Below, piece by piece: positions 7,081 to 36,836 of a stretch of 40,008 nucleotides of DNA (the stretch's first letter is position 1; each line of letters opens with the position of its first letter). A model generated the notes under the pieces. It saw only the letters and a program-made list of their open reading frames with translations. It did not search any database and had not been told where the DNA came from. The stretch comes from Loigolactobacillus jiayinensis. GTDB taxonomy: Bacteria; Bacillota; Bacilli; Lactobacillales; Lactobacillaceae. A program made the translations under genes and the position numbers. The DNA is taken from contig NZ_RHOF01000037.1 of assembly GCF_003946445.1 (NCBI RefSeq), positions 1 to 40,008 of the forward strand, written 5' to 3'.

Positions 7081-7488
7081 GTGAATAAGGATGACATTCA
7101 GCAGTTAATGCAACAGTTTGATCAAAGCCAACTGAATGAATTCGCGTTGAAAAATGCTGATTTTGAATTACACTTCAGCAAGCAAACGCCTGCTGTTAAT
7201 GCAGCGCCAGTAATCACAACGCCTAAAGCAGCACCGGTATTACCAACGATTCAAGCGCCATTAGTGGGCGTGGTCTACCTTGCCGCAGCCCCAGACCAAC
7301 CAGTCTACAAAAAAGTGGGCGATCATGTGGCCGTTGGCGAAGTTGTTTGTGTGATTGAAGCCATGAAAATGATGAACGAAGTTAAAAGTGAGCTTAGTGG
7401 CACGGTGGCAGCAATTTTAGTCGATAATGAAGCGATGGTCGACTACCATCAAGCACTGTTTGAAATTACACCAGATACAGCCGACTAA
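7081..7488 (+). CDS. accB: Biotin carboxyl carrier protein of acetyl-CoA carboxylase (AccB)
   Basis: Carries the carboxybiotin between AccC and AccAD. It has 135 aa: an N-terminal domain, an Ala/Pro/Thr linker (about residues 36-58) and a C-terminal biotinyl domain with Lys96 in VIEAMKMMNEV as the biotin site. The start is GTG at 7081, only 4 nt after the fabF stop. The ribosome binding site is weak (GAGTAAG), so translation probably depends on coupling to fabF. Confidence 0.95.
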   Translation: MNKDDIQQLMQQFDQSQLNEFALKNADFELHFSKQTPAVNAAPVITTPKAAPVLPTIQAPLVGVVYLAAAPDQPVYKKVGDHVAVGEVVCVIEAMKMMNEVKSELSGTVAAILVDNEAMVDYHQALFEITPDTAD

Positions 7489-7511
7489 TTTGAACGAAGA
7501 GGAGTTTAGCA

Positions 7512-7934
7512 ATGTTAAATGTAACTGAGATCCAAGCGATTATCCCCCATCGTTACCCCATGTTATTAGTTGATAAAGTTTTGACTTTAGTGCCCGGTGA
7601 AAGTGTGGTCGCTCAAAAAAATGTCACCATCAACGAACCATTTTTTCAAGGTCATTTTCCAGGTAATCCAGTGATGCCAGGTGTGTTACAGATTGAAGCC
7701 TTAGCCCAAGCTGGTGCCATCACAATTTTAAGCTTACCGCAATTTAAGGGTAAAACGGCTTACTTTGGTGGCATCACTAAGGCTAAATTTCGGCAAATGG
7801 TGCGGCCCGGCGACATTTTGCGCTTGGAACTAACGCTAACTAAGTTACGCGATCACGCAGGTAGTGGTAAAGGCACAATCACAGTTGACGGCAATGTTGT
7901 CTGTACGGCTGAGCTGATTTTTGCGATCGAGTAG
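7512..7934 (+). CDS. fabZ: 3-hydroxyacyl-ACP dehydratase (FabZ), canonical copy
   Basis: Second FabZ paralogue of the operon, 140 aa, with the complete dyad: His48 in [11 protein letters not shown] and Glu62 in QIEALAQAG. It removes water from 3-hydroxyacyl-ACP before FabK acts. The ATG follows AGAGGAG. It sits between accB and accC, the usual lactobacillar order. Unlike FabZ1 it keeps the catalytic His, so it is the safer assignment for the main dehydratase. Confidence 0.96.
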
Positions 7935-19870: not shown

Positions 19871-20065
19871 ATGAGTGAATCAAAAGAGTTGAGTGCGTTG
19901 GCAGAACAAATTATTCAGTATCAAAAGCGGCACGACCAAACTGATAATGAGTTGGCGTTTAGTAGCCACGTTTCGGTAGAACATATTCACGCTATTAAAG
20001 CGATGGAGATGACACCACCGGCCGATGACGTTAAACGCATACAGGAATATATTCAAGGAAAATAG
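19871..20065 (+). CDS. Small conserved lactobacillar protein (64 aa), HTH-like
   Basis: A helical, soluble 64-aa protein (begins MSESKELSALAEQIIQYQKR) with an HTH-like core, NELAFSSHVSVEHIHAIK. It resembles the small LBP_cg2779-type family of lactobacilli. The function is unknown. It has an extended -10 upstream (TGGTACACT near 19816) and a terminator downstream at 20150. GAAGGATGG precedes the ATG. Confidence 0.7.
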   Translation: MSESKELSALAEQIIQYQKRHDQTDNELAFSSHVSVEHIHAIKAMEMTPPADDVKRIQEYIQGK

Positions 20066-20149
20066 GCAGTCTTTAGCTAACTAATGATTTTACTACCCAA
20101 TTTGTTTCTGTAAAATTAGGTAAATAAATAGTTCGTGTATAAAATAAAT

Positions 20150-20187
20150 ACAGGCGCAACGCTGATAATTTTCAGTGTTACGCCTGT
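20150..20187. terminator. Bidirectional terminator between the 64-aa and 49-aa genes
   Basis: A 16-bp, nearly perfect stem. ACAGGCG is paired with CGCCTGT, extended through an AACGCTGA/TCAGTGTT inner stem around 20159-20177. It is followed by GTTTTTATTT on the plus strand and ATTTATTTTA on the minus strand. It closes both the 64-aa gene and the SAM-controlled 49-aa gene. Confidence 0.9.
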
Positions 20188-20191
20188 GTTT

Positions 20192-20341
20192 TTATTTATC
20201 GCCGATTTTTTTAGTCTGGTCATGAGCGACGAGTGCTGCCTTAAGTGCCTGTTGAATCAGGTGAGCGACGACATCGTTAGTAATTTTTTTGTCCGTCCGG
20301 CCAACAATTTGCCGCCGAAAATTCTCTTCATTTAAACGCAT
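20192..20341 (-). CDS. SAM-riboswitch-controlled 49-aa protein, function unknown
   Basis: A small gene directly downstream of a SAM-I riboswitch and its terminator, on the same strand. The ATG has a strong ribosome binding site (GGAGGA, 6 nt upstream). The stop is just before the terminator at 20150-20187, so this is the only gene of the transcript. It is a charged, probably mostly helical protein: N-terminal MRLNEENFRRQIVGRTDKK, a central VVAHLIQQALKAAL amphipathic helix and a basic C-terminus TKKIGDK. It has no Cys, and the only Met is the first residue, which suits production under methionine starvation. I recognise no family. Confidence 0.8.
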   Translation of the reverse strand: MRLNEENFRRQIVGRTDKKITNDVVAHLIQQALKAALVAHDQTKKIGDK

Positions 20342-20370
20342 AATGATTCCTCCAATCAAATAATGGTTGA

Positions 20371-20532
20371 AAATAAAAACGCCCCTTTAGCCTTGGCTGA
20401 AAGAAGCGCTAGAATGCGTACGTTGTGCTCCTTATCTACTCAGCTAATTGCTGCTGGAATTAGCACCTTGCTTTTTGTCGTAGGTTGCTGTGCTGTCAAC
20501 GGGCCAGATCCCTCAAGCACTCTGGATAAAGA
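20371..20532 (-). ncRNA. SAM-I (S-box) riboswitch with transcription terminator
   Basis: Read on the minus strand, the sequence has all S-box landmarks in order. P1 CTTTATCC is at 20531-20524; then GAGTGC, TTGAGGGA, CTGGCCC, a kink-turn region ending in GCAACC, then GGTGCTAATTCC with the CAGC/GCTG P4, and the P1 return strand AGATAAGG (about 20438-20431). A terminator hairpin follows at 20409-20380 (CGCTTCTTT... with ...AAAGGGGCG), with TTTTTATTT. P3 looks short. Binding of S-adenosylmethionine should terminate transcription before the 49-aa gene. An ORF on the opposite strand here is a shadow of this RNA. Confidence 0.96.
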
Positions 20533-20551
20533 CGTTCTTAATTTCACTGTT

Positions 20552-20580
20552 AGTGTAACAAGTTACGCTAATTTATGCAA
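20552..20580 (-). promoter_or_regulatory. Promoter of the SAM-I riboswitch transcript
   Basis: On the minus strand, TTGCAT (20580-20575), a 17-nt spacer and TACACT (20557-20552) lie about 20 nt before the aptamer. Confidence 0.75.
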
Positions 20581-20679
20581 GCGCTATCCTTGAATGATTA
20601 GTAATTGTTTAAAAGTAGCCCTATTAATTTGGATTCATAATGATAAAGTTATAATAAAATCACATGGCTATAGACACGG

Positions 20680-20756: not shown

Positions 20757-20951
20757 ATGATTGAAGGTTTAATCGGAATCGTCTTTTTGTTGCTTGCGTT
20801 GTGGCAGTTTTATGCTTTTTATAATGCTTTTAGAACTGTTCAGAAAAAAGGCAATGAAGCGACTTCTGCTTTTGCCAGCTTGGGTATCTGGTATGGTTTT
20901 CTTTTTGGGGTATTCTTTTTGATTAGTGGTATTTATTTTCTGATTGGCTAA
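20757..20951 (+). CDS. Small membrane protein (64 aa), unknown function
   Basis: Two hydrophobic helices (residues about 3-26 and 43-63) flank a short polar loop with a basic KKGNEATS stretch. Begins MIEGLIGIVFLLLALWQFYAF. AAGGAGGGG lies before the ATG. It converges with the CadD-like gene on a shared terminator. The family is not recognised. Confidence 0.75.
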   Translation: MIEGLIGIVFLLLALWQFYAFYNAFRTVQKKGNEATSAFASLGIWYGFLFGVFFLISGIYFLIG

Positions 20952-21720: not shown

Positions 21721-22010
21721 ACTGATTAAAAATAAATGAGAACGTTAAGACGAGAAGAGTAATTGCTGAGAAAGCCCACAGAGAGTTCCTGCTAAGTGTA
21801 AGGGAATGGCGCATTGGCGATGAAGATGATCTTCGAGCGTTTGCCAACGAGCTATGGTTAGTTGGCAACGGTTGTGCCCGATATAGCACCACAGTCTGTT
21901 GCTTTGCAACGCACTGGTAGAGTCCAACGCTGTGAAGCGCTGGAAAAATAAGGTGGTACCGCGATCGCAGAAGCGTCGTCCTTTGTTATACAGAGGATGA
22001 CGCTTTTTTT
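21721..22010 (+). ncRNA. T-box leader with Met specifier, upstream of metE
   Basis: The antiterminator T-box sequence AAGGTGGTACCGCG is at 21950-21963. A terminator hairpin (AAGCGTCGTCCT.../...AGGATGACGCTT) with a T-run follows at 21971-22010. Stem I starts near GAAGAGTAA (about 21751-21759) and includes an AGAGAG bulge. It returns as GATGAAGATGATCTTC, placing an ATG codon just before the closing strand, so the specifier reads Met. Uncharged tRNA-Met should open transcription of metE and yitJ. The stem I assignment is by eye. Confidence 0.93.
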
Positions 22011-22040: not shown

Positions 22041-24329
22041 ATGGTAAAAAGTAGTAATCAAGGATACCCACGCTTAGGTGAAAAACGGGAATGGAAATTT
22101 TTGCTCGAACATTTATGGAGCCACAAAATTGATGAAGCTGAATTCACTGCACAAACTAAAGCATTACGCTTAGCTAATCTTAAGAAGCAACAAGCAGCTG
22201 GTGTTGATCTGATTCCAGTGGCAGACTATTCAAATTACGATCATGTATTAGATATTGCTGCTGCATTTGGTGCTGTACCACAACGGTTTGGCAAGTTCAC
22301 CGAGAAATTAAGCTTAACTGATTATTATAGTGTGGCGCGCGGCACTAAGGATGCAGTCGCTGCTGAAATGACGAAGTGGTTCAACACGAATTACCATTAC
22401 ATCGTGCCTGAACTTGATCATGTACAGTTTAAATTACTCGATAATCGTTGGCTAACTTATTACAACGAAGCAAAAGCTGAATTAGGTATTGACGGTAAGC
22501 CAGTTATTTTAGGCCCAGTCAGCTTCTTGAAACTAAGTAAAGTGAATGACGACTATGTTCGTGGCGAACTTTTAGCCCAATTATTAGATGAATTATTGCC
22601 ATTATATGTACAAGTTTTCCATGAATTAGGTGCTGCTGGCGCTAAATGGGTTCAGTTGGACGAACCAACTTTAGTGACAACTGATAAGGCTGAACTCGAC
22701 TTGTACCGCCACGCGTTGGACGTCTTGCATGAAGCTGCACCAGAAGTAAATGTACTGGTGCAAACTTACTTTGCTTCATTAGATTATTATACTGACATTG
22801 TTAATTTGCCTGCTGAAGGCTTCGGACTTGATTTTGTCCATGATCATGGTGAAAACTTGCAGTCATTGCAAAAATACGGCTTCCCAGAAACTAAGGTTTT
22901 AGCAGCAGGTGTTGTTGATGGTCGCAATATTTGGCGTAGTGACTTAACGGCTAAACAGGAACTGATCAGCCAATTACGCGAGCAAGTGGCTAGTGCCCAA
23001 TTATGGTTACAACCGTCTAATTCATTATTACATGTACCAATTACTACGGCTAACGAAAGCAAATTGGACCCTGTGATCAAAAATGGTTTGGCGTTTGCTG
23101 ATCAGAAACTAGCCGAAATCGTGACCTTGACTAAGGCTGCAAATGGTGAAGTCGTTACTGCTGAATTAACAGCTAGCAAGACTGCGTTAGATCAACTGAA
23201 CCATTCGGAACATCGGAATAATCCAGCGGTTACCCAGGCTGTCAAAGAAATTCTGGCTGCACCAACTGAACGGCATTCTGCTTATCCAGAACGGGTTAAG
23301 GCGCAGCAGGTCCTGAACTTACCATTATTGCCAACCACAACAATTGGTAGTTTTCCACAATCTGCTGAAGTACGTTCACACCGTAAAGCTTGGCGTAAAG
23401 GGGATTTATCCACGGCTGACTATCAAGCCTTTTTGGATCAAGAAGCCAAACGCTGGTTGAAAATTCAAGAAGATCTTGACATTGATGTGTTAGTTCATGG
23501 TGAATTTGAACGGACTGACATGGTAGAATACTTCGGTCAAAAACTAAAAGGGTTCACGACAACACAAAATGGTTGGGTACAAAGTTATGGTTCTCGTGGG
23601 GTTAAACCGCCAGTTGTCTTTGGTGATGTGCAATGGACTGAACCAATTACTGTCCGCGATACTGTTTTTGCCCAGCAACAAACCAGCAAGTTGGTTAAAG
23701 GGATGCTGACATCTGCGGTAACCATCATTAACTGGAGCTTTGTCCGCGATGATTTGGCTAAAAATCTAGTCGCTGATCAAATCGGTTTGGCTTTACGTCA
23801 TGAAGTTAAAGCATTGGAAGATGCTGGCATTAAGATCATTCAAGTTGATGAACCCGCTTTGCGTGAAGGCTTGCCACTGAAGCCACGTTATCGTGCTGAT
23901 TATTTAGCTAATGCCGTTAAAGCATTCAAAATTACGACAACTGGTGTCAAAGATGAAACCCAGATTCACACGCATATGTGCTACTCTGATTTCGAAGATA
24001 TTTTGCCAGCTATCAGTGCATTAGATGCTGATGTGATTTCCATTGAGTCATCACGCTCACATGGGGAAAGTATTAAAGCTTTCGAACAAACTAAATATGA
24101 CAAGCAAATTGGTTTAGGCGTTTACGATATCCATAGCCCACGGGTACCTTCGGTTGAAGAAATCGAACAAAATATTGATCGTGCATTGCAGGTTATCGAT
24201 ATTCATCAATTCTGGATCAACCCTGATTGTGGCTTAAAGACTCGCAAAGAACCAGAAACAATTGCTGCTTTGCGGAACATGGTACAAGCACGAAATAACG
24301 TACGGGCTAAATTAGGTGTAACGGAATAA
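22041..24329 (+). CDS. metE: Cobalamin-independent methionine synthase (MetE)
   Basis: Transfers the methyl group of 5-methyl-THF(Glu)n to homocysteine, making methionine. It has 762 aa, full length, with two TIM-like barrels. The N-terminal [13 protein letters not shown] motif is present. The C-terminal zinc ligands are in THMCYSDF (His, Cys), [11 protein letters not shown] (Glu) and NPDCGLKTR (Cys). The ATG follows AGGAGGATGAG. It is placed behind the Met T-box, with yitJ 35 nt downstream as probable operon partner. Confidence 0.98.
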
Positions 24330-36514: not shown

Positions 36515-36836
36515 ACATTAAAAATAAAATGAAGTTTTGATTAGAAAAAGTAGCAGGGTGATGTTTAGAGAGAGTACCTAGTTGGCTGTGAGGGTATAGC
36601 ACACTTTGTGAACACACATCTATGAACTTTGGTGCTGAATCACAGTAAGTACCAACGCAGGGTCTGCGTTAAAAACTGTTACAAGTTAATTCAAGAGTAA
36701 GTATTATTTAGCGTTACTCTGAAACTAAGACTTAATTTGCAACTTGAGGTCTGGGTCTGTAAAGCCCAGATAAACTTGAGGTGGCACCACGATTATTCGT
36801 CCTCGTAAGCATTCTATGCTTGCGGGGACTTTTTTA
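36515..36836 (+). ncRNA. T-box leader with His specifier, upstream of hisZ
   Basis: The T-box sequence AGGTGGCACCACG is at about 36779-36791. A terminator hairpin (GTCCTCGTAAGCA... with TGCTTGCGGGGAC) and a T-run lie at 36800-36836. In stem I the strand GATGT (about 36560) pairs with ACATC (about 36626). Directly before the latter is GAACAC, giving CAC (His) as specifier, with an AGAGAG bulge nearby. Uncharged tRNA-His would promote readthrough into hisZGD. The specifier was assigned by eye. Confidence 0.92.

Follow-up and report, generated by a model that had tools for sequence, protein, structure and literature searches.

A full-length SAM-I riboswitch on the minus strand of the window (the whole stretch of 40,008 nt from Loigolactobacillus jiayinensis analyzed here) is followed by a gene of 49 codons whose product has no known family. 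We consider it probable, at roughly 60%, that the riboswitch switches this gene as a monocistronic unit and that the product is a small protein which assists or modulates methionine synthesis and is produced under low SAM. Comparison among genomes supported the aptamer, its expression platform, the coding status of the gene, its linkage to metE and its restriction to the genus.

The SAM-I riboswitch and its expression platform

The first-pass annotation of this region had described a minus-strand SAM-I aptamer with a promoter, a terminator and a well-spaced ribosome binding site, followed by a 49-aa ORF and a strong terminator. All of these elements were recovered, and those of the leader were as follows.

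20552..20580, minus strand: promoter, with -35 TTGCAT (20580-20575), a 17-nt spacer and an extended -10 TGTTACACT that includes TACACT (20557-20552)
20576..20589, minus strand: cre-like 14-mer, a possible CcpA site, overlapping the -35
20429..20532, minus strand: SAM-I riboswitch aptamer (RF00162)
20401..20433, minus strand: antiterminator of seven pairs, AAGGAGC (20433-20427) with GCTTCTT (20407-20401)
20370..20410, minus strand: internal intrinsic terminator of the expression platform, a stem (20410-20378) and then a U-run
20349..20353, minus strand: Shine-Dalgarno sequence GGAGG, 7 nt before the ATG at 20341 by direct reading

The covariance search that the annotation had proposed as a check (cmscan) matched the whole of RF00162, model positions 1-108 of 108, at 20532..20429 with 75.7 bits against a cut-off of 44.4 (E 3.6e-16). 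This was the one SAM-I match found in the 3.04-Mb assembly, for which 150 of 241 first-look candidates were scored. A SAM-I element was present in seven of the eight Loigolactobacillus genomes, with scores of 58-75.7 bits. The promoter is weak but conserved, its layout being the same in all seven leaders (the window's included), though it fell below the threshold of a generic sigma-70 scan of the window and was not listed there. A simple terminator scan of the window likewise missed the terminators.

The internal terminator hairpin had a predicted energy of -16.6 kcal/mol (z -4.0). One arm of the antiterminator shares the 3' strand of P1 and the other is in the 5' arm of the terminator, such that the antiterminator competes with both. 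The two alternative structures could be folded in all seven leaders; calculated from the P1 3' strand onward, the energies were -16.0 to -20.3 kcal/mol for the terminator and -5.2 to -7.6 kcal/mol for the antiterminator. The antiterminator was almost invariant and had no covariation in the alignment count. In one genome (G002) its arms read GGAAC and GTTCC, against GGAGC and GCTTC in the others, so that the pairing is kept; the count did not score this change because the columns were gap-aligned or nearly invariant. A Shine-Dalgarno-like sequence was found in every leader (GGAGG in five and GGATGG in two).

The alignment of the seven leaders was too conserved to give strong evidence from covariation. 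The five aptamer helices were 94-100% paired across the seven sequences, with most pairs invariant and one pair changed on both sides, and covariation therefore adds little beyond the Rfam model. Over the aptamer and terminator, 96.3% of cells were paired compared to 36-57% in slid versions of the alignment, whereas the covariation score of the leader was weak (0.049, versus 0.053 for the control slid by +1). Together, the aptamer match and the conserved platform confirmed that the leader has the make-up of a canonical SAM-I transcription-termination riboswitch, with SAM binding predicted from its class.

The cre-like 14-mer was compared with the cre consensus. Twelve or 13 of the 14 positions were matched in all seven leaders. 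In six of these the site overlaps the -35, and in G002 its position is slightly upstream of that element. Across the window, cre-like matches were not above chance (20 observed versus 28.5 expected). Its position at the promoter hints that carbon supply could matter too.

The small gene and its transcription unit

20192..20341, minus strand: gene of 49 codons plus TAA, with homologues in seven of the eight genus genomes and under purifying selection
20150..20187, no strand assigned: 3' hairpin, a likely terminator (-26 kcal/mol, z -9.6)

The list of ORFs opened this frame at an upstream TTG, giving 55 aa; the ATG at 20341 is the start common to all seven species. The protein occurs at 43-100% identity in the same seven genomes as the SAM-I element, and in the eighth (G006) neither the element nor the 49-aa ORF was found. 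Joint conservation of the ORF and riboswitch, with a coding signal, had been another check named in the annotation, and both were seen. Sixteen residues are invariant in the seven protein sequences, including the N-terminal MRL and EENFR. Pairwise comparison of the four close species (six pairs) gave pN of 0.03-0.11 and pS of 0.69-0.84; dN/dS, where computable, was roughly 0.01-0.06, a value that is only approximate because synonymous change was near saturation. The 55 variable nucleotide sites in these species were distributed over codon positions 1, 2 and 3 as 12, 5 and 38 (p = 6.5e-8). Judged from these substitution patterns, the 49-codon ORF is a real gene under strong coding selection.

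The 3' hairpin sits between the small gene and a convergent gene of the LBP_cg2779 family (19871-20065). The gene following the small ORF was on the opposite strand in all seven loci. Gene order gave no sign of the read-through to another gene that the annotation had named as counting against its reading, and as it had remarked, no known methionine or SAM gene lies downstream. The only other minus-strand ORFs of at least 30 codons at 20116-20560 in the window were two of 35 codons each. As part of the whole best explanation we regard the small gene as probably monocistronic, going by this gene order.

In two carriers, G001 and G005, no clear U-run terminator was seen by eye until ~180 nt past the ORF, a point still before the convergent gene. 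The stretch 3' of the small gene in these genomes (L062, ~7407-7595, and likewise L065) contains intergenic hairpins and then a long U-run. It had no Rfam match over the cut-off and is possibly a small RNA.

Properties and relatives of the 49-aa protein

The window's protein is basic, with a pI of about 10, and members of the family have pI values of 9.5-10.5 and lengths of 48-52 residues. There is no transmembrane stretch, the best 19-residue Kyte-Doolittle mean being 0.97. Two AlphaFold runs (mean pLDDT 68 and 70) predicted two helices at low confidence, and Foldseek searches of the PDB with both models returned nothing. A sequence search of the PDB gave two chance-level matches only (E 1.3 and 1.9). 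No match over cut-off was obtained from Pfam, PHROGs or, for three of the seven members, NCBIfam. The best Pfam match was to CTD4 (E 0.0052), which was matched by three of the seven members at E ≤ 1 and by the window's protein with 12.9 bits against a cut-off of 27.6.

Profile searches were made of genome samples from the family, order and phylum, which overlap. Among 397 family genomes there were 37 matches at E ≤ 0.1, namely the seven carriers plus 30 more genomes, none of them with an E below 0.008. The 31 weak places in those 30 genomes were mostly in long frames (25 in frames of at least 144 codons), with six in frames of 38-65 codons. In 395 order genomes only the protein's own genome was matched at E ≤ 0.01. 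Six of 398 phylum genomes were matched at that level: its own, four whose matching frames were 187-857 codons long (best E 0.0017) and a sixth with a 48-codon frame. The last (L090) lies opposite a 571-aa ORF and was rejected as a relative. None of the five phylum loci other than its own had a SAM-I match over the cut-off.

Plasmids, phages (E ≤ 1) and viral contigs yielded no relatives. Exact 8-residue patterns of the window's protein, sought in the genomes of 84,980 species, were found in L. binensis only, whose homologue is 84% identical; divergent relatives would escape such a search. As far as the profile searches reach, the protein appears restricted to the genus, there being no credible relatives outside Loigolactobacillus. 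No paper on the small gene was apparent by title or start of abstract among the literature matches listed, in a search that covered little of the subscription literature, and the available parts of PMC2494555 and PMC7266159 contain nothing on it.

The metE neighborhood

21738..21986, plus strand: T-box leader of metE (RF00230, 100.3 bits), with AUG at the specifier position
22041..24329, plus strand: metE, cobalamin-independent methionine synthase (Meth_synt_1 and Meth_synt_2 domains), the divergent neighbor

In all seven carriers metE is upstream of the small gene and divergent from it; the distance from its start to the small gene is 0.7-3.6 kb, and the intervening genes differ. It was found in seven of the eight genus genomes, the same seven as the small gene. 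The annotation had stated that the nearby metE is run by a T-box, and a T-box core with the same GAAGATGA context and an AUG specifier lies just upstream of metE in every carrier. The Rfam T-box cut-off was passed in the window, G001, G002, G003 and G005 and failed in G004 and G007. A homocysteine S-methyltransferase/methylenetetrahydrofolate reductase fusion follows metE in G000, G003, G004 and G007; the other three carriers had just weak MetF-like matches elsewhere in the genome.

G006, the genome without the switch, also had no metE found and no MetF or MmuM-MetF matches. It keeps the genes on the LBP_cg2779 side, but the site of the SAM-I gene is occupied by an AdoCbl riboswitch (L077:4357-4498, minus strand) beside an ABC importer whose domains are FecCD, Peripla_BP_2 and ABC_tran. 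The importer plausibly serves B12. Replacement of metE in G006 by a B12-dependent methionine synthase was considered and rejected, there being no Met_synt_B12 match in any of the eight genomes. An unrooted tree of the eight species from four neighboring proteins placed G006 between two groups of carriers, and the absence of SAM-I element, ORF and metE therefore counts as one event, either loss by deletion or ancestral absence.

Two further features of the window were seen. A 64-aa membrane-like ORF (20757-20951, plus strand) lies between the riboswitch and a Cad-family transporter gene; it had no family matches over cut-off, and ORFs resembling it were recognized by eye in the G004 and G006 regions. 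A second T-box leader (36528-36807, plus strand, 109.3 bits) lies before a 409-aa ORF at 36816.

SAM-sensing RNAs across the Lactobacillaceae

A SAM-III element directly precedes metK in all eight Loigolactobacillus genomes. This is similar to Lactobacillus paracasei, in which metK has an SMK box (SAM-III) and metE-metF a Met T-box (PMC6004538); to that arrangement Loigolactobacillus adds a SAM-I switch given to a small protein. The Loigolactobacillus leader shares with SAM-I (S-box) riboswitches of RF00162 the aptamer, the overlap of P1 and antiterminator and the intrinsic terminator. The difference is in the target. The SAM-I targets described in the part of PMC9943018 available are genes for methionine synthesis, transport and recycling, whereas here the usual methionine or SAM gene is absent and the sole target is a 49-aa protein without a known family.

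At least 66 of 301 sampled Lactobacillaceae genomes had a SAM-I-like match, the seven Loigolactobacillus carriers included, in a scan whose filters lose some weak matches. The list outside the genus comprised 66 SAM-I-like places, all of which were examined. Fifty-one of these precede metK (22 of 23 in loci L016-L038 and 29 of 43 in the remaining loci). These metK-linked elements belong to the same RNA class and bacterial family as the Loigolactobacillus switch, but score 30.9-60.1 bits compared to 58-75.7 and have metK, not the small gene, as their target. The remaining 15 places, all but one of them below the Rfam cut-off (29.9-41.2 bits), included several before small proteins without a known family.

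Seven such sub-threshold elements (L107, L110, L112, L113, L121, L123 and L125; 35.8-41.2 bits), from five Lactobacillaceae genera, directly precede a family of proteins of ~96-114 aa, here called A4. Their aptamers lie within 1435-1620 of each 3-kb locus and, by eye, seem to have no P4. The two A4 members scanned had no Pfam or NCBIfam matches over cut-off. A kinship between these ~100-aa proteins and the 49-aa protein was rejected, as hhalign found no relation. The A4 loci resemble those of Loigolactobacillus in having a SAM-type aptamer before a small protein of no known family, and differ in that their aptamers are below the cut-off; possibly they form a variant of SAM-I that has a separate family of targets.

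Among other loci, L124 looks like a decayed copy, and L114, L117 and L133 have SAM-I-like elements before other proteins, of 128-134 aa, two of which were scanned and had no matches over cut-off. On contig C92 of genome G190, which is 68% complete, tandem SAM-I-like aptamers ~220 nt apart (L028:1501-1591 and L111:1181-1579) precede two proteins of 142 and 186 aa.

A model for the small gene and the alternatives

In the SAM-I class, according to the available text of PMC9943018, high SAM closes P1 and the terminator forms, and low SAM lets the antiterminator form. Both SAM binding and the direction of control are carried over from the class to the Loigolactobacillus leader. When SAM is plentiful the aptamer would close P1, the terminator would form and the small gene would be off; when SAM is scarce the P1 3' strand would pair with the 5' arm of the terminator, and read-through would allow the protein to be made. 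We propose that this 49-aa cytosolic protein would assist or modulate methionine synthesis by contacting another protein, perhaps MetE or a different member of the Met pathway, a biochemical role that is wholly our conjecture. A role by protein contact is favored on the distribution of the genes: wherever the small gene was found metE was its neighbor, the genome in which no metE or metF was found yielded no copy of it, and metK with SAM-III occurs in all eight. Against an accessory role, the function rests on association, and the joint absence in G006 is a single event. In addition, the protein was not found outside the genus in the profile searches, although another family member, Lactobacillus paracasei, has a metE-metF unit controlled by a Met T-box (PMC6004538), and MetE therefore needs no such protein in general. 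The first-pass annotation had suggested a new regulator or accessory protein of methionine metabolism; the methionine link is drawn from the sensor class, the adjacency to metE in all seven carriers and the joint absence, whereas the regulator or accessory part stays conjectural, with no family, fold or partner found.

The basic pI, the 48-52 residues and the two predicted helices would also suit a regulator that binds nucleic acid and tunes methionine genes as SAM falls, such as a minimal ribbon-helix-helix dimer. The invariant N-terminus MRLxEENFR and the pattern VxxLIxxAL in the second helix of the window's protein are in line with this, the likeness to ribbon-helix-helix proteins being one that we assume. 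We find such a regulator rather unlikely: Pfam, NCBIfam and PHROGs gave no match over cut-off, the PDB no significant relative by sequence or fold, and the few residues ahead of the first predicted helix are short for a DNA-contacting strand, which we presume to be longer. That the ORF is a leader peptide or no gene at all, with transcription serving a further gene, has a precedent in short ORFs beside attenuators, which can be leader peptides (PMC2965389, from the part available). This reading has been largely refuted and is very improbable here, as the ORF is placed after the riboswitch, a strong hairpin comes next in the window, the following gene is encoded on the opposite strand in all seven loci and the codons are under coding selection.

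The frequency of metK as the target elsewhere in the family, together with SAM-III on metK in every Loigolactobacillus genome, would fit a riboswitch left over from metK after a SAM-III takeover, now driving a gene with no methionine role. Set against this, all seven carriers have an intact aptamer and platform, always in company with metE and the ORF; the SAM response therefore seems to have been kept, and we think a leftover unlikely. Action by the RNA itself, with the peptide secondary, has also to be weighed. Some SAM and B12 riboswitches are reported to act in trans or antisense. A SAM riboswitch in Clostridium acetobutylicum acts antisense opposite ubiG-mccB-mccA (as described in the available text of PMC9943018), and the genes downstream of the small ORF are convergent with it. 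Such action appears quite unlikely, given the strong selection on the protein sequence, the strong hairpin that in the window stands between the ORF and its convergent neighbor, and the divergent position of metE without overlap.

Returning to the accessory or modulator, we suggest tentatively, and with rather less confidence than for the model as a whole, that below a SAM threshold the 49-aa effector may bind and retune a methionine-synthesis enzyme or transporter. It would then form a third layer beside the Met T-box of metE and the SAM-III element of metK, and comparable circuits built on unrelated proteins of ~100 residues may have arisen independently in other Lactobacillaceae.

When a small protein without a known function stands behind a metabolite riboswitch, the switch points strongly to the pathway in which the protein works. 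In Loigolactobacillus, metE, metK and the small protein are each behind a different RNA sensor, and the gene arrangement indicates that the little protein is probably part of methionine management in this genus. The riboswitch class is known; its target here, a small protein confined to the genus, is of a new kind. If the proposed role is true, a small-protein effector would join what SAM riboswitches control.
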